From positions 1 to 20,396 of IMG/VR virus record IMGVR_UViG_3300027648_000004: a stretch of 20,396 bases of DNA, one strand, 5' to 3'. The first letter of the stretch is position 1; every line of letters begins with the position of its first letter. The notes beneath the pieces are model-generated. The model was not told the DNA's origin and ran no database searches. It saw only the letters and a program-made list of their open reading frames with translations. The translations under genes and the position numbers were made by a program. Of the stretch, positions 2,872 to 18,805 are shown one piece after another. The DNA comes from a virus.

Positions 2872-2891
2872 GTGGCACTTCTGGTGGCACT
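2872..2891 (+). repeat. Arm-site-like direct repeat pair A
   Basis: GTGGCACTTCTGGTGGCACT contains GTGGCAC twice, 12 bp apart. It differs from pair B on the other side of the core at one base in 20. I read the two as the P and P' arm sites bound by the integrase N-terminal domain; the repeat is seen directly, the binding role is inferred. Confidence 0.6.
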
Positions 2892-3008
2892 CAGAAATTA
2901 CTTTACCGCTCCGTGCCGTACCTCTCCGGAACTCGGTTTGCTTTGTTTTCAGGTGGTTGGAGGCTGCCCGCGCTCTGCCGTGACTCGCCGTAAGCTGGGT
3001 TAATCGTT

Positions 3009-3046
3009 TCCAGAATCTGATGTCCTGCCAATTGGACGACCTCCCA
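3009..3046 (-). other. 5' half of tRNA-Gln(CUG): probable attP core
   Basis: Read on the minus strand from 3046: acceptor strand TGGGAGG, TC, D-stem GTCC, loop AATTGGCA, D-stem GGAC, A, anticodon-stem strand TCAGA, anticodon loop TTCTGGA with CUG at 34-36. The match to a tRNA stops there: the next bases, AACGA, do not pair with TCAGA, and no T-arm or acceptor 3' strand follows. It is therefore half a tRNA, beginning 11 bases after the integrase stop codon. On the plus strand the anticodon is at 3011-3013. It cannot work as a tRNA by itself; recombination with a host tRNA-Gln gene within or near the anticodon loop would complete it. Confidence 0.78.
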
Positions 3047-3057
3047 TCCGGTTGAAA

Positions 3058-4242
3058 CTATGAGGCTTTCGGGGACCTCACTCTCGCCCGCTTAACCCTG
3101 GTGGCACTTGTGGTGGCACTCCGGAGTCCGCCGATCCGCTCCGCCGGCACGAGCGTTGGTGGCACTTCGGAGGGTACCATCTTCGGGTCCAGCAGCAGGA
3201 CCGCGCGCATCTTGTGATCCGGCGAAAGGTGCGCGTACTTCATGGTCATCTCGATCGACTTGTGCCCCATCAGGTCCTGGACCGTTCGCATGTCCACGCC
3301 GGCCATCGCGAGGCGCGACGCGAAGGTGTGCCGCAGGTCGTGCCAGCGGAAGTTCTCGACGCCGGCGGCTCTCACGATTCCGGTCCACCACTTGTGCGAC
3401 CAGCCGGGGTTGACGAGCGTCGCGCCGTTTGAGATCTTGTAAAGTTTTTCCAGCAACGTGCGCGTGGAGTTGTTTATCGAAATGTGCCGGCGTCCGGTCT
3501 TGCCGTGGACCGTCAGCAGGCCAAGCTCGAGCGAAACGTTTTCCCACGTCAGCGTGAGCTGCTCGCCCAGGCGCATGCCGGTGTTGAGGGCAAGGTCCAT
3601 GCTCGCTTCGCGCTCGGGAAACTCCGACGCGAGGATGGCTCTGCGCAGCGCGAGTTCCTCGGCCTTGTCGAGGAAGCGGATCCGGTGATCGGTCTCGCGG
3701 TAGCGTTCGACCGCGGCGACCGGGTTCACCTTGACGTGGCCGTGGCGCACGCCGTACCTGAAAACGCTGCTGATGAACGAGCGGTAGCGATTCACCGTCG
3801 AGCCGCTGAGCGGCGGGCGCGGTTGCGCATCTTTCGCATCCGGCTCTGGTTCCTTCCGGTTGCCGGGGCCGTCGAGCTGGAGCTGGCGCAGCGTGCTTTC
3901 GATCATTTCTGCGGTCACTTCCACGGCTGCGATCTTGCCGAATTTTTTTAGGCGCTCGGCTCGCACGGAATCGTTCGCGCAGGTCCTGCGTGACAGCCGC
4001 AAGGCTTTGCTCTCCATAGCCAGGTCCGCCAGCGCGCGAAACGTGATTTTCACTTTGCGAGTCGGCGCGACAAAGGTTCCTTCCCGGATCTCGCGCTTGC
4101 GGTTGATGTAGGCTTCGACCGCGACCGACCGGCGCCCGATTTTTTCTCGGTGCCGCGCGCCGGCAGTGTCCTTGTAGCAAATCCACCAAATCCCGGAGCC
4201 GGGCACGCGCTCGTAAACTCCCCGCATTTTTTCTTCAATCAT
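3058..4242 (-). CDS. int: Tyrosine site-specific recombinase (phage integrase), 394 aa
   Basis: The full catalytic set is present: Arg224 in TGMRLGE, Lys248 in HGKTGRRH, His301 and Arg304 in HDLRHTFASRL, His327 in GHKS and the nucleophile Tyr336 in MKYAH. The N-terminus (SGIWWICYKDTAGARHREK) is the arm-binding type of many phage integrases, followed by a SAM-like core-binding domain with a Pro/Lys-rich insertion at about 124-146. The 50-residue tail after the catalytic domain is Ser/Thr/Arg-rich and its DNA contains repeat pair B. ATG at 4242 overlaps the upstream stop as ATGA. The stop codon is 11 bp from the tRNA-Gln half, which strongly supports its role in integration there. It is related to the second recombinase at 8843-9943. 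Confidence 0.95.
   Translation of the reverse strand: MIEEKMRGVYERVPGSGIWWICYKDTAGARHREKIGRRSVAVEAYINRKREIREGTFVAPTRKVKITFRALADLAMESKALRLSRRTCANDSVRAERLKKFGKIAAVEVTAEMIESTLRQLQLDGPGNRKEPEPDAKDAQPRPPLSGSTVNRYRSFISSVFRYGVRHGHVKVNPVAAVERYRETDHRIRFLDKAEELALRRAILASEFPEREASMDLALNTGMRLGEQLTLTWENVSLELGLLTVHGKTGRRHISINNSTRTLLEKLYKISNGATLVNPGWSHKWWTGIVRAAGVENFRWHDLRHTFASRLAMAGVDMRTVQDLMGHKSIEMTMKYAHLSPDHKMRAVLLLDPKMVPSEVPPTLVPAERIGGLRSATTSATRVKRARVRSPKAS
3101..3120 (+). repeat. Arm-site-like direct repeat pair B, inside the integrase 3' end
   Basis: GTGGCACTTGTGGTGGCACT again has two GTGGCAC copies 12 bp apart, in the same orientation as pair A. It lies in the region encoding the low-complexity SATTSATR stretch of the integrase C-terminus, beyond the catalytic domain, so the coding sequence may be shaped by its role as a binding site. 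A further single GTGGCACTT lies at 3159-3167. Confidence 0.6.
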
Positions 4243-6131: not shown

Positions 6132-6160
6132 CGGCAGACCGTCCCGACAAATGTCTGCCG
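6132..6160. promoter_or_regulatory. Inverted repeat over the methyltransferase start
   Basis: CGGCAGAC (6132-6139) and GTCTGCCG (6153-6160) are a perfect 8-bp inverted repeat around a 13-base loop. The right arm begins two bases after the A of the ATG at 6151, so in RNA the hairpin would hide that start codon, and in DNA the site could be an operator. No Shine-Dalgarno site precedes 6151. The element may control methyltransferase synthesis, or the true start may be the GTG at 6181. Confidence 0.45.
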
Positions 6161-7455
6161 AAAAAACGGGGGCACGGCGTGTGGCTCATTCCGGTTTCTT
6201 TATCCTCAGCGTTTGCTCTGGAACGGCGATGCTCGATGAAGGAGTTCGCGTCGCTGTGCCAGAGGCGCGGACTGTGGGTTACGTCGAGCGGGAAGCCTAC
6301 GCTGAAGCCGTTCTCCTGGCGCGGATGGGCGAAGAAGCGCTGGAGCCGGCACCTGTTTGGTGCGGACCTCTTGAAGATCTCAAATTCGGGGAGTGGCGTG
6401 GAGCAGTGGACTGCCTCACTGCGGGCTTCCCGTGCCAGCCGTGGAGTGCTGCCGGCCAGCAACGCGGCGAAGCGGACGACCGATGGCTCTGGCCCGCGAT
6501 CCGCGACGGGATCCGCGAGTCCGGCGTGCCCATCGTTTTCCTTGAGAATGTGCCAGGGCTCGTTTCTGGATGCGGACTCAATCGCGTACTCGGAGATCTT
6601 GCCGCGCTCGGGTTCGATGCGGAGTGGTGTTCTATTTCCGCAGCCGACGTGGGAGCCGCCCATCTTCGCGAGCGAATTTTCATTCTGGCCGTCGGCTCGA
6701 GCGGAGGACGCGGAGTCCTGCGGGAATCATCCCAAGGGCGGCTCATCGCACTCGGGCGACTCGCTGACGGGAGTGACTCGGCTGTGGCAGACGCCAGCGA
6801 GCGATTCGTTCCGCTCACGCGGCGGGGACCGGAAGGAGGAAATGGGTCTGGACCAGCAGGCGCGGATCCTGTGGCCGACGCCGGATGCGCAGAGCGGAGG
6901 CGCGACGGTTCCGTCGACGGAGCGCAAGAGCCAGATGAATCTGAAGGAGGCGGCGGAAAAACTCTGGCCGACGCCGGACTCCATGAGCGGCGGACCGGAG
7001 AGTGCGGAGCGGAAGCAGGAGCTGGGCCGGATGGAATCGGGCGGGAGCGATCTCTCGGCCACGGCACAGATCTGGCCGACGCTTCGCCCGTGCTCGGGGT
7101 TGCGCTCGAGCGGAGCGAACGCGACGGAGTTCTATCGGCGCTGGCCGACGAGCGGAGCGAACGACTGGAAGGGCAGCGCGGCGACGGGCCAACGCAGGGG
7201 CCAGCTCGACGAAGCGACGGAGCAGATATTTTCGCACCCGGTCCCACCGATCCCCGATGGCCAGCCATCCTCGACGAAAGACCTTTCCTTGCGCCGGCGA
7301 TTGAATCCGGGTTTTGCCGCGTGGCTTATGGGGATGCCGTGGTTTTGGACGAATCCCGAATCGATCAGCTCCGCGCGATCGGAAACGGAGTTGTGGCGCT
7401 GCAGGCTGGCGTCGCGTTCGCAGTTCTTGCTCGGCGAATTCTCGAAGGTGGGTGA
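6151..7455 (+). CDS. DNA (cytosine-5) methyltransferase, 434 aa
   Basis: C5-methyltransferase motifs occur in order: motif I around residues 17-31 (FILSVCSGTAMLDEG, a variant of the usual FxGxGG), motif IV with catalytic Cys95 (GFPCQPWSAAG), motif VI at 131-136 (LENVPG), motif VIII at about 172-178 (LRERIFI), and motifs IX-X at the end (IDQLRAIGNGVV). The part between about 185 and 395, the target-recognition region, is low in complexity with several ADA(G/S)..ERR repeats. The start is uncertain (ATG 6151 or GTG 6181). The stop overlaps the next gene. No restriction enzyme is nearby, so it is probably an orphan enzyme protecting phage DNA. It is overlapped by another long frame. Confidence 0.85.
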   Translation: MSAEKTGARRVAHSGFFILSVCSGTAMLDEGVRVAVPEARTVGYVEREAYAEAVLLARMGEEALEPAPVWCGPLEDLKFGEWRGAVDCLTAGFPCQPWSAAGQQRGEADDRWLWPAIRDGIRESGVPIVFLENVPGLVSGCGLNRVLGDLAALGFDAEWCSISAADVGAAHLRERIFILAVGSSGGRGVLRESSQGRLIALGRLADGSDSAVADASERFVPLTRRGPEGGNGSGPAGADPVADAGCAERRRDGSVDGAQEPDESEGGGGKTLADAGLHERRTGECGAEAGAGPDGIGRERSLGHGTDLADASPVLGVALERSERDGVLSALADERSERLEGQRGDGPTQGPARRSDGADIFAPGPTDPRWPAILDERPFLAPAIESGFCRVAYGDAVVLDESRIDQLRAIGNGVVALQAGVAFAVLARRILEGG

Positions 7456-7700: not shown

Positions 7701-8045
7701 ATGGTGGAGCAGGAGCAGGTCAGTCTGGGAAATCTCTGCAACGGTGCGATCGAGGAAGTTTTTCAGCGGGAGTTCGCAACCGTTCTCGCCAACATCGGCG
7801 ACGTCAACACGGATCCCGAAGCGAAACGCAAAATCACGCTCGAGTTCACGCTCGAGCCGTTTGCGGACCGCTCCGGCGCCGAGGTCACCTTCGCCTGCAA
7901 GTCGAAGACGATCCCGGTGAACTGCGTTAAAGGCACGGTGTTCCTGCAGCGGAAAGGCCTGGTGATGGTCGCGATCCCTCACGACCCTCGGCAGGTTCGG
8001 ATGTTCGACGGCAAGCTCGCCGGGGCAGGCGACAAACCGAGCTAG
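7701..8045 (+). CDS. Conserved phage early protein, often labelled 'replication terminator protein' (114 aa)
   Basis: AGGAGGAATCG precedes ATG 7701. The start LGNLCNGAIEEVFQREFATVLANIGDVNTDPEAKRKITLEF follows a pattern I know from a widespread family of small phage proteins: an N-terminal helix with NGA..E.F..E...V..NI.D.NTDP...RKIT, then beta-strands (LEFTLEPFADRSGAEVTFACKSK). The database name 'replication terminator protein' is traditional and has little support. It pairs with the next gene, an arrangement also seen in other phages. Function remains unknown; family recognition is from memory. Confidence 0.75.
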   Translation: MVEQEQVSLGNLCNGAIEEVFQREFATVLANIGDVNTDPEAKRKITLEFTLEPFADRSGAEVTFACKSKTIPVNCVKGTVFLQRKGLVMVAIPHDPRQVRMFDGKLAGAGDKPS

Positions 8046-8082
8046 GGCCATGCAGCAAAAATTAAAACCGGAGGAACCAGCG

Positions 8083-8835
8083 ATGCTCAGTGAATTTGTT
8101 TCAAAGATTTTGACTCTGGCATTGCCGAATCAGGTTGAACTGGGAGGGCTCACTTACGTCGACAAACAACTGACGCCTGTGAAGCCTCCAGTTGCGGATT
8201 CGGTCGAAGTGTCCACTCTGCAGGGCCTAGCCGATCTGTACAACGGCGATCTCGGCACGGTGAAATCGAAGGGCGATGTCCTGATTCACATCACCAGTCC
8301 CACCACGGTCGAGATCATTTCACGCCTAACCGACGACTGGAAGCGCGAGCAAGTCTACGCGCGCGCTACCTATCCCACAAAAATCGAAGGCTTCCCGTTC
8401 GGCCAGTGGCTGAACCTGGAGAACTTCATCATCATGTGCCAGTCCCGGATCCAGCGCGCGATGATTCAAAACGACGACGGGACGATGGCGAAGGACCTCG
8501 ACTACGTTCTGCAAATCGCTTCGGCGATCTCGGCGGAAGCGATCGAGACCTCCGACGACGACGGGATCTCTCAGAAAGTTGCCACGCGTCGCGGCATCGT
8601 GCTGAAAGACCAGACCAACCTCAAATCGCGAGTCACGCTCGCTCCCTACCGCACGTTCGCAGAGGTCGACCAGATCCCGTCGACGTTTGTGTTCCGTGCT
8701 CGGAAGGCAGCCAACGAAGAGATCAACCTCGCGCTGTTCGAGGCCGACGGCGGTCGCTGGCGTATCGCAGCGGTCGCCAACATTGCAGCGTGGCTCGGCG
8801 GAGGGAAATTCGGCGACTCGCCGATCATCAGCTAA
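8083..8835 (+). CDS. Conserved phage protein of unknown function (250 aa)
   Basis: The start chosen is ATG 8083, with GGAGG eight bases before it; ATG 8050 in the same frame lacks a ribosome site. The product is a soluble alpha/beta protein with segments such as VEVSTLQGLADLYNGD, HITSPTTVEII, PTKIEGFPFGQWLNLENF and RVTLAPYRTFAEVDQIPS, ending in a globular stretch with RWRIAAVANIAAWL. The last part is reminiscent of DUF2303/YfdQ-type phage proteins, but I hold that only as a possibility. It forms a pair with the 7701 gene and ends just before the second recombinase. Confidence 0.7.
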   Translation: MLSEFVSKILTLALPNQVELGGLTYVDKQLTPVKPPVADSVEVSTLQGLADLYNGDLGTVKSKGDVLIHITSPTTVEIISRLTDDWKREQVYARATYPTKIEGFPFGQWLNLENFIIMCQSRIQRAMIQNDDGTMAKDLDYVLQIASAISAEAIETSDDDGISQKVATRRGIVLKDQTNLKSRVTLAPYRTFAEVDQIPSTFVFRARKAANEEINLALFEADGGRWRIAAVANIAAWLGGGKFGDSPIIS

Positions 8836-8842
8836 AAAACGA

Positions 8843-9943
8843 ATGCCCAAAATTCCCGGCATCTTCGAGCGTCCGGCGAAGAGCGGCGTCTGGTGGATCT
8901 CGTACTGTGACACGGAGGGAATGCGTCACCGCGAGAAAATCGGCAGGCGCTCTCTGGCTCTGGACGCAGTGTCGCGCCGGAGGTTGGAAGTGAAGGACGG
9001 GCGGTACATTCCGCCCACCAAGGGAGCGCGTCTCACGTTCCGCGAACTCGCCCAGGCAGCGATGACGCAGAAGAAATTGAGACTCGCTCCCCTCTCTTAC
9101 GAAACGGACCTGATGCGGCTCGCAAAACTATTACCGCTCATCGGCAACGTGCCAGCGGACCGGCTCACGCCGGACCGTGTGGAGGAGACGCTCGCAGGTT
9201 TGCGATCGACGGTGTCGGGATCCACGGCCAACCGCTATCGCTCGCTCATCAGCAGCATCTACGCGTTCGCTCTGCGGTCCGGTCGCATCGCGGTCAACCC
9301 GGTTTCCCGCGTGAAGAGGTATCGCGAGAACGACTCTCGGATCCGATGGTTGAAGCCGGCGGAGGAGGCGGCGATCAGGAAGACCATCGACCATCTGGCG
9401 CACGAAGCAGAGTTCGATCTCGCGCTTCACACGGGAATGCGGCGCGGCGAGCAGTTTCTACTTAAATGGAAAGATTGCGACCTCGAGACGGGAATTCTGA
9501 CGGTCAAAGGGAAAACGGGACGGCGTCACATCGTGGCGAATCGCTCGGCGCTCCGGGCGCTGCGCACGCTAAAGGCGCTCACGCCCGAGGATGCTAGGTT
9601 CGTTTCGCCCGACGCGACCGACGACGTGCGGCGGGACTGGCGCCGCTGGCTCGAGGATGCGGTGAAGAAGGCGAAGGTCGAAGACTTTCATTGGCACGAT
9701 CTGAGGCACACGTTCGCTTCGCGCCTGGTGATGCGCGGTGTCGACATCCGAACGGTGCAGGAACTTCTGGGCCACAAATCAATCGTCATGACGATGAAGT
9801 ACGCGCACCTCGCGCGTGATCATCGGCAGGCGGCGGCCGAGAAGATGAACGACAAGGAGGCAACACCGATGACGGACACAAAAAAGGGCGGCGACAAAGG
9901 CAGTGGCGGGAAGGACAAAGGCGGGAAGGACGGCGGTAAGTAG
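8843..9943 (+). CDS. Second tyrosine recombinase (integrase paralogue), 366 aa
   Basis: The start chosen is ATG 8843, 8 bases after the upstream stop, giving an N-terminus that lines up with the first integrase (SGVWWISYCDTEGMRHREK against SGIWWICYKDTAGARHREK). Catalytic residues are complete: Arg200 (TGMRRGE), Lys224 (KGKTGRRH), His285 and Arg288 (HDLRHTFASRL), His311 (GHKS) and Tyr320 (MKYAH). It lacks the 25-residue insertion of the first and ends in a Lys/Gly/Asp-rich tail of about 24 residues. It is on the other strand, in the early operon, with no tRNA-like core beside it. Possible roles are integration at another site, excision, dimer resolution, or a captured integrase. Confidence 0.93.
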   Translation: MPKIPGIFERPAKSGVWWISYCDTEGMRHREKIGRRSLALDAVSRRRLEVKDGRYIPPTKGARLTFRELAQAAMTQKKLRLAPLSYETDLMRLAKLLPLIGNVPADRLTPDRVEETLAGLRSTVSGSTANRYRSLISSIYAFALRSGRIAVNPVSRVKRYRENDSRIRWLKPAEEAAIRKTIDHLAHEAEFDLALHTGMRRGEQFLLKWKDCDLETGILTVKGKTGRRHIVANRSALRALRTLKALTPEDARFVSPDATDDVRRDWRRWLEDAVKKAKVEDFHWHDLRHTFASRLVMRGVDIRTVQELLGHKSIVMTMKYAHLARDHRQAAAEKMNDKEATPMTDTKKGGDKGSGGKDKGGKDGGK

Positions 9944-17259: not shown

Positions 17260-17490
17260 GTGGACGACCCGAAGACTAAGGAGCTCGAGGCTCACGTGGT
17301 GAGCTGCAGCGTCTGCTCGGTTGCAAACAAGCGGGTCAACGATTTTTGCGAGACCGGGCAGCTACTTTTTTTTGTGTGGGCGGAGGAGCACCCGCCGCGC
17401 GCAGCGGCGTTGGTCGAACTCACGCCGGAGCAGTACGAGCAGCTCGTGCAAGCGGTGCTCCGCCGGGCGCGGAATGCCGAGAGGAACTGA
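17260..17490 (+). CDS. Small protein with HxxxCxxC motif (76 aa)
   Basis: The start chosen is GTG 17260 with GGAGGCGGTT before it. HVVSCSVC (residues about 11-18) is the HxxxCxxC motif of anti-sigma-type zinc fingers and of many small phage proteins, with another Cys at NDFCETG. A helical C-terminus (LTPEQYEQLVQAVLRRARNAE) follows. No anti-sigma partner is visible, so regulation is only a possibility. First gene of the packaging operon. Confidence 0.65.
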   Translation: MDDPKTKELEAHVVSCSVCSVANKRVNDFCETGQLLFFVWAEEHPPRAAALVELTPEQYEQLVQAVLRRARNAERN

Positions 17491-17494
17491 GCCG

Positions 17495-18805
17495 ATGAAA
17501 ATTCAGATGTGGAGCATCGATCGAGTCATCCCGTACAAAAGAAATCCGCGGCGCAACGAGGACGCCGTCGCAAAAGTTGCAGCGTCCATCAAGGAGTTCG
17601 GTTTTAAGCAGCCCATCGTGGTGGACAAAGAGTCGGTGATCATCGTCGGCCACACGCGACTGCTCGCTGCGCTCCGGCTCGGCATGAAGGAAGTCCCGGT
17701 CCACGTCGCGAGCGATCTCTCGCCGGCGCAGGTGAAGGCTTACCGCCTGGCCGACAACCGAGTCCACGAAGAAGCGGAGTGGAACGAGGAGCTGCTCGCG
17801 CTCGAGCTGGGCGATCTGTCCAAGCTCGGATTCAATCTCGAGGCGACCGGCTTCGACGCCGACGAAATCAACGAGCTGCTGAACCTCGAGCAGGGCGGTC
17901 TGCTCGCCGGCGCCGACGAGGACGCGGTACCGGAGACGCCGGCGAAACCCACGGCGTTCACTGGCGAGCTCATCACGCTCGGGAAGCACCGCGTGATCTG
18001 CGGCGACTCCACGGATCCCTACATCATCGAGAAACTTTTCGCCGGCGCGAAGGCCGACGCCATCTTCACCGATCCGCCGTACAACGTGAACTACGAAGGT
18101 GGCGCGGGGAAAATAAAAAACGACAACATGGCTGACGACAAGTTCCGGCAATTCTTGCGGCGCGCGTTCGGCGTGATGTTCCGTGTGCTGAAGGACGGCG
18201 GCGCCGTCTACGTTTGCCACGCTGACACCGAGGGACTCAATTTTCGCGGCGCGTTCACCGAGGCTGGTTTCAAACTCGCTGGCTGCCTCATCTGGTGCAA
18301 GGACTCGCTGGTGCTCGGGCGCTCCGACTACCAGTGGCAGCACGAGCCGATCCTCTACGGCTGGAAGCCCACGGGATCTCACAAGTGGTACGGCGACCGG
18401 AAGTCCACGACCATCTCGGAGTTCATGCTGCAGGCTCCGCTCACCCAGGTGGAGCCGAATCGCTACCGGCTCCGGCTCGGCGATCAGTGGTTTGAAATCC
18501 GCGGCGAGAAAATAGCGATCGAGGAACTCGAGACCACGGTCGTGAAGATGCCGAAGCCGAAGCGCTCCGACGAACACCCGACCATGAAGCCCGTCGCGCT
18601 CATCGACAAGTTCCTGAAAAATTCCACACGGAAAAAGGACCTGGTGTTCGACGCGTTCGGCGGATCCGGCTCGACGCTCATCTCGTGCGAGAAGCTCGGG
18701 CGCACCGCGTACCTCTGCGAACTCGAGCCGAAGTTCGTTGACGTCATCGCGCTCAGGTGGGAGGAAGCCACGGGGAAAAAAGTAAAACGCAATGCCTCTA
18801 ACTGA
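17495..18805 (+). CDS. ParB-domain/DNA methyltransferase fusion (436 aa)
   Basis: The start chosen is ATG 17495 (GAGGAACTGAGCCG upstream), giving MKIQMWSIDRVIPYKRNPR, the usual opening of ParB/Srx-like domains; GHTRLLAA at 52-59 is the conserved motif. After a linker (about 95-155) a class beta-type DNA methyltransferase follows: catalytic DPPY at 193-196, the MKP segment at 364-366, and the AdoMet-binding FGGSGST at 388-394. DPPY enzymes methylate adenine N6 or cytosine N4. No matching nuclease is nearby; in phages such fusions next to terminase are common and probably protect DNA or mark it for packaging. It overlaps the small terminase gene by 14 bases. Confidence 0.93.
   Translation: MKIQMWSIDRVIPYKRNPRRNEDAVAKVAASIKEFGFKQPIVVDKESVIIVGHTRLLAALRLGMKEVPVHVASDLSPAQVKAYRLADNRVHEEAEWNEELLALELGDLSKLGFNLEATGFDADEINELLNLEQGGLLAGADEDAVPETPAKPTAFTGELITLGKHRVICGDSTDPYIIEKLFAGAKADAIFTDPPYNVNYEGGAGKIKNDNMADDKFRQFLRRAFGVMFRVLKDGGAVYVCHADTEGLNFRGAFTEAGFKLAGCLIWCKDSLVLGRSDYQWQHEPILYGWKPTGSHKWYGDRKSTTISEFMLQAPLTQVEPNRYRLRLGDQWFEIRGEKIAIEELETTVVKMPKPKRSDEHPTMKPVALIDKFLKNSTRKKDLVFDAFGGSGSTLISCEKLGRTAYLCELEPKFVDVIALRWEEATGKKVKRNASN

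Follow-up and report, generated by a model that had tools for sequence, protein, structure and literature searches.

Integration of mobile elements into tRNA genes is usually thought to be harmless, with the host promoter and the 5′ half of the tRNA gene staying where they were. In the standard case, as in mycobacteriophages, attP carries the 3′ half of the tRNA gene (PMC10865867). The opposite arrangement, the 5′ mode, is known but rare: in the Islander collection 159 of 3919 islands have a 5′ tDNA fragment versus 3760 with a 3′ fragment (PMC4383910), and in S. meliloti nine of 88 elements match the tRNA 5′ end (PMC11476347). The initial annotation of the DNA studied here was right that most phages carry the 3′ part, yet the 5′ mode is not unheard of. 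For archaeal pTN3/TKV4-like elements of Thermococcales, attB is the 5′ half of a tRNA gene, with 41 bp shared and the anticodon loop involved (PMC5495485, PMC8371274); the anticodon loop has been described as the overlap region, and the pTN3-type situation as one seldom encountered in bacteria (PMC8371274). A literature search found no description of a bacterial integrase family with a dominant 5′ mode, a promoter-bearing int end and polarity switches, nor of a bacterial clade built on the 5′ mode.

We analysed a 20,396-nt stretch of DNA from a soil phage (IMG/VR virus record IMGVR_UViG_3300027648_000004, positions 1 to 20,396), referred to below as the window. Very probably, positions 2872–3167 are the attP of a temperate Terriglobales phage whose integrase, int1, targets the anticodon loop of tRNA-Gln(CTG), the 5′ half of the tRNA gene being supplied by the phage and the tRNA being transcribed from phage DNA. 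This reading is carried by the half-tRNA itself, its position, the arm-type repeats around it, and the same layout with displaced 5′ halves in 10 relatives.

A tRNA 5′ half directly behind the integrase gene

The minus strand from 3046 to 3009 (TGGGAGGTCGTCCAATTGGCAGGACATCAGATTCTGGA) corresponds to nt 1–38 of a tRNA-Gln(CTG), comprising the 5′ strand of the acceptor stem, the D-arm, and the 5′ strand of the anticodon stem with the loop, in which the anticodon CTG occupies 3011–3013. The match ends at nt 38, the final base of the anticodon loop and its 3′ edge, and the bases that follow (AACGA; AACGATTAACCC) are unable to pair with the anticodon stem. As the initial annotation had said, the 38 bases are followed by a break in the match and lie 11 bp past the integrase stop codon on the same strand; the int1 stop TAG is at 3060–3058 and the spacing is exactly 11 nt.

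Alignment with tRNA-Gln(CTG) genes of candidate hosts, a check proposed at the outset, gave identity at 37 of 38 positions to the tRNA-Gln(ctg) of an Acidipila-like MAG, L017 (Acidobacteriota, Terriglobales; BLAST E 5e-13 in the tRNA set). The lone mismatch to this gene is G7, a base shared with nearly all other Terriglobales tRNA-Gln(CTG) genes. When a full tRNA-Gln(CTG) pattern was run against 84,980 species genomes, a single entry agreed in D-arm and D-loop length, and this was again the Acidipila MAG. Exact 36–37-mer searches of the half-tRNA in viral and bacterial collections returned nothing, and a host with a 38/38 tRNA match was not found in the bacterial collections searched.

ARAGORN called no tRNA in the whole 20-kb window, so the window holds no complete cognate tRNA gene, and a complete phage tRNA was rejected as a candidate. 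The tRNA 3′ part is absent from the window, which is not the composition of a standard 3′-half attP. A chimera of phage nt 1–38 and host nt 39–75 was called by ARAGORN as tRNA-Gln(ctg), while the phage sequence alone was not called. Two further candidates were discarded: a mascRNA-like Rfam match on the other strand (E 0.34, well under the gathering score) was attributed to chance, and a special fold 3′ of the half-tRNA was rejected, its folding being no better than that of shuffles.

The half-tRNA is flanked on both sides by near-identical 21-bp blocks, each consisting of two AGTGCCACC-type repeats with a 12-bp period (Table 1); all repeats on the integrase side fall within the coding end of int1. 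These putative sites look like integrase arm-type sites. In the window, arm repeats of both sides surround one core, the arrangement of an attP that has not been integrated. The range 2872–3120 given for the attP in the initial annotation fits the outer repeats at 2872–2892 and 3101–3121, of which it made no mention. The motif A[GC]TGNCACC, a pattern defined from the window and other loci and present in six of 10 elements tested, occurs at 3.3/kb near element ends versus 0.07/kb inside, on both sides and mostly in 12-bp tandem pairs. On the integrase side of relatives such tandem pairs lie at about −98/−86 from the tRNA start and correspond to the pair at 3101–3121; the far-side pairs, which correspond to that at 2872–2892, follow the displaced half at ∼+169/+181 and keep the same orientation. 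The locus therefore has an identity block made of one tRNA end, broken at the anticodon loop, with putative arm-type repeats on both sides, as in tRNA-targeting attP sites; the repeats and the same layout in relatives support the earlier proposal of an attP that contains the 5′ part of the tRNA gene in place of the 3′ part. An inverted repeat (GGGTTAATCG / CGCTTAACCC, 90%) at 2997–3006 and 3089–3098, 82 nt apart around the half-tRNA, may be due to chance.

Table 1. Features of the window and displaced tRNA 5′ halves of integrated relatives
Feature	Position	Strand	Remarks
int1, tyrosine integrase, 394 aa	3058..4242	-	PF00589 E 4.6e-26; catalytic R-K-HxxR-H-Y present
int2, second integrase of int1's family	8852..9943	+	PF00589 E 4.3e-30; ~47% identical to int1
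Third integrase-side arm-type repeat (putative; AGTGCCACC)	3159..3167	-	
Integrase-side pair of arm-type repeats (putative; AGTGCCACC type)	3101..3121	-	12-bp period; within int1 3′ coding end
Putative −10-like site CATAGT, weak	3057..3062	-	Overlaps int1 stop, before half-tRNA; window p ~0.05
tRNA-Gln(CUG) 5′ half	3009..3046	-	nt 1 = 3046, nt 38 = 3009; attP identity block
Anticodon loop TTCTGGA, nt 32–38	3009..3015	-	Probable 7-bp overlap for strand exchange; cleavage position presumed
Far-side pair of arm-type repeats (putative)	2872..2892	-	95% identical to 3101–3121, same orientation as other pair
Displaced half, G085			CAT-anticodon tRNA nt 1–46
Displaced half, G057			Leu-CAA nt 1–41
Displaced half, G054			Leu-TAA nt 1–41
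Displaced half, G077			Lys nt 1–40
Displaced half, G038			Ser-TGA nt 1–39
Displaced half, L131			Phe nt 1–39
Displaced half, L132			Leu-CAA nt 1–40
Displaced half, L134			CAT nt 1–39
Displaced half, L140			Leu-TAG nt 1–40
Displaced half, L144			Leu-TAG nt 1–40

The two integrases of the window

The catalytic residues of int1 fall among the invariant alignment columns. The second integrase gene, int2, is intact, has the opposite orientation and lies 4.6 kb from int1; together with two preceding genes (7701–8835) it makes a cassette that also occurs in the Terriglobales genome G037 (62, 56 and 75% identity). Comparison with the 165 tRNAs used revealed no tRNA half beside int2, and there was none at the G037 copy of the cassette. 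It is less likely that int2 owns the attP, which abuts int1, there being no tRNA match beside int2. Paired integrases of the same family are also present on two other viral contigs of ∼40 kb (L181/L194 and L187/L188) and may be common in such phages. Elsewhere in the window, 17489–18805 encodes an N6/N4 DNA methylase with a fused ParB-N domain, and a C5-methylase has a frame of its own at 6151–7455.

Integrated relatives in Terriglobia

Relatives of int1 (up to 50% identity) were detected in 36 of 95 genomes of the order (threshold 1e-15) and in 88 of 399 genomes of the class (1e-25). At tRNA-adjacent loci in Terriglobia the intact tRNA gene is downstream of int on the same strand in 37 of 45 cases and on the opposite strand in eight, where the 45 distinct loci, some of them from related lineages, do not represent as many independent events. 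The same-strand tRNA, mostly 0–64 nt after the int stop, may have a CAT anticodon or be of type Leu, Lys, Arg, Asn, Ser, Phe, Ile or SeC. In integrated relatives the rebuilt tRNA lies behind int, as was anticipated for the window's phage, and apart from its own promoter, which is left with the host 5′ half at the far end. In these relatives int is whole.

Ten integrated elements carry at the far end, on the same strand, a displaced tRNA 5′ half extending from nt 1 to 39–46 with 97.5–100% identity (Table 1); element lengths range from ∼5 to 37 kb. In each of the 10, one end holds the intact tRNA and the other, in the same orientation, the displaced 5′ fragment, the signature of a 5′-fragment island. 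The lysogen search suggested by the initial annotation was successful for these relatives but not for the window's own phage, a lysogen of which was not found in the collections searched. At L124 no displaced half was found within 50 kb, and at a few contig-limited loci none was found in the DNA available up to the contig edges. The opposite-strand locus L125 has the displaced 3′ part expected for it (nt 29–87), hence both polarities occur in one integrase family.

Two loci have unusual structures. In G054 (C41:29699–33014, L094) two tRNA-Leu 5′ halves, nt 1–33 and nt 1–41, stand in a row, as if by tandem integration of two elements at a single tRNA, and in G038 (C46:75165, L054) the int frame extends 14 nt into the tRNA-Ser gene, making the two genes overlap. 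A relative from the first scan (L002) and cultured phages were too distant to be informative.

Other viral loci and the integrase tree

Scanning IMG/VR with the integrase family alignment revealed seven further distinct phage loci at which int is followed by the 5′ half of a tRNA gene (tRNA-Met, Leu-TAG or Cys). These halves end at nt 39–44, and the near-copies L199 and L200 are counted once. At an additional locus, L189, a complete tRNA-Leu follows int at a distance of 10 nt, which is the layout of an integrated form. The other 64 integrases (from the IMG/VR scan and controls, int2 included) showed no match to the 165 tRNAs used. At L181 (4041–4318) a complete tRNA-Leu(TAG) is situated 6 nt behind int, and nt 30–85 of another tRNA-Leu(TAG) 179 nt past the stop.

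In a tree of 76 integrases, built by a quick search, int1 grouped with int2, the 5′-mode prophage G085 and G037 (SH-aLRT 99). The 5′-mode label is strongly clustered on the tree, with seven changes versus 24.5 for shuffled labels, and at least four changes are required between the 5′ mode and the other tRNA-adjacent types. Among tRNA-adjacent members, reversed polarity is the rule in the integrase family of int1. The 5′-mode element G057 (Leu-CAA) falls together with the opposite-strand Leu loci L123 and L125 (support 91). The attP would be behind int in both polarities, and inversion of the near-palindromic anticodon core would decide which half is carried. Opposite polarities on one tRNA type in such close relatives make the evolution of integrase target polarity testable in this family.

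Proposed mechanism and transcription of the rebuilt tRNA

In the proposed mechanism int1 would recombine attP with the host tRNA-Gln(CTG) gene at its anticodon loop. The integration product would read int1, phage upstream DNA, and an intact tRNA made of the phage 5′ and host 3′ halves; the 5′ half native to the host would be moved, together with its promoter, to the far prophage end. Transcription of the rebuilt tRNA would come from phage DNA; its most likely source is a short promoter that overlaps the 3′ end of int1, the alternative being read-through from int. That int1 is active, where exactly the crossover falls and that such a promoter is present are inferred.

By its predicted place the rebuilt tRNA would follow phage DNA and be parted from its native promoter. 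In a list of all 39 tRNA genes detected in G057 and G085, the rebuilt Leu(CAA) tRNA and the rebuilt CAT tRNA (for its sequence type), respectively, were the only copies found, a status that is provisional, the genomes examined being mostly drafts. If the rebuilt tRNA is indeed the sole copy in these two genomes, its transcript must originate within phage DNA. The 70 nt before rebuilt tRNAs frequently contain −10-like sites overlapping or following the int stop (e.g. TATAGT, TATGAT and TATAAT). Their scores are above those of int-internal DNA (p 1.5e-10, in part an effect of the higher AT content near the junction) and, for the family, above those of dinucleotide shuffles (Stouffer z 3.9, Fisher p 0.003), and they are about equal to those of host DNA before displaced halves (mean 5.2 versus 4.6 bits). 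Near the window site a scan for consensus sigma-70 promoters gave no match, and a terminator scan found none. Because of the sole-copy tRNAs and the enrichment of −10-like sites upstream, the likeliest driver is a small putative phage promoter overlapping the int 3′ end, rather than read-through of the int operon.

The same attP could be combined with transcription of the rebuilt tRNA by read-through from the integrase promoter only, in which case the tRNA supply would follow int expression. The gap of merely 0–64 nt on the same strand, with no terminator between, would allow it, and the tRNAs of archaeal pTN3-like elements have been described as expressed from the integrase promoter (PMC8371274), yet many rebuilt tRNAs have −10-like sites directly upstream. 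We regard transcription by read-through alone as unlikely. Integrases are usually silent in lysogens, and yet in two hosts the rebuilt tRNA is the sole copy found. The dependency of the host tRNA on the phage, suggested in the initial annotation, gains support from these two hosts; the integrase operon to which it was ascribed is unlikely to be the whole story given the −10-like sites upstream.

Another possibility is that the half-tRNA is a relic, either a degraded phage tRNA gene or an old recombination scar, which no longer serves as an attachment site. Such an origin would agree with the presence of only half a gene, and int2 could then be the integrase in use, but it is made very improbable by the clean edges at nt 1 and nt 38, the 37/38 identity, the arm repeats on both sides, the intactness of int1, and the recurrence of an identical layout in integrated relatives and on other viral contigs. 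Similarity by chance, or else an independent tRNA-like RNA, has nothing but the short length (38 nt) to recommend it and is practically negligible at E ∼5e-13 versus the tRNA set, the recurrence of both position and break point in relatives refuting chance.

On the reading of an attP that brings a tRNA 5′ half and a promoter, a wider proposal can be made, in which we place about even confidence: int1 would belong to a widespread integrase clade of Acidobacteriota phages and islands that has reversed polarity, takes over the promoter and 5′ half of many kinds of host tRNA genes, often single-copy ones, by means of a promoter at the int 3′ end, and has switched polarity repeatedly by core inversion. 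Phage-borne sequences would in that case control host translation, and a host in which the element was lost or decayed would be deprived of a tRNA.

Comparison with known systems

Contrary to the usual view of tRNA-gene integration as harmless, here the element would supply both the promoter and the 5′ half. Lysogens would need phage DNA for a tRNA that is often the sole one of its kind in the genome; such dependency could act as an addiction-like stabiliser and would let the element set the host tRNA level.

The family resembles the 5′-tDNA-fragment islands (PMC4383910, PMC11476347) in that the displaced fragment is the tRNA 5′ end and the element supplies the 5′ part, and a class with crossover in the anticodon loop exists among those islands. 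They are, however, scattered cases, whereas here the tRNA-adjacent members of one Acidobacteriota family are mostly of the 5′ mode, the attP following int directly and −10-like sites lying at the junction.

In pTN3-like elements, as here, the rebuilt tRNA is parted from its original promoter and is downstream of int sequence. The pTN3 att site is inside int, and its integration is suicidal, splitting the gene; in the present family int survives integration whole, with a stop codon that comes before the tRNA or overlaps it slightly, the half-tRNA of the window starting 11 nt after the int1 stop.

Standard 3′-half integration likewise employs a tyrosine integrase and arm-type sites around an anticodon-loop core, and the tRNA is rebuilt, but the host keeps its promoter; the polarity seen here is reversed, although some members of the family use the standard one (L125).

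In the tRNA-dependent lysogeny of Fionnbharth-type phages (PMC10865867) the lysogen relies on a phage-supplied tRNA promoter, as proposed here. Those phages bring a complete tRNA gene, which is absent from our 20-kb window, and the host gene is destroyed, whereas in the present family a chimeric gene is rebuilt from the phage 5′ half and the host 3′ half.
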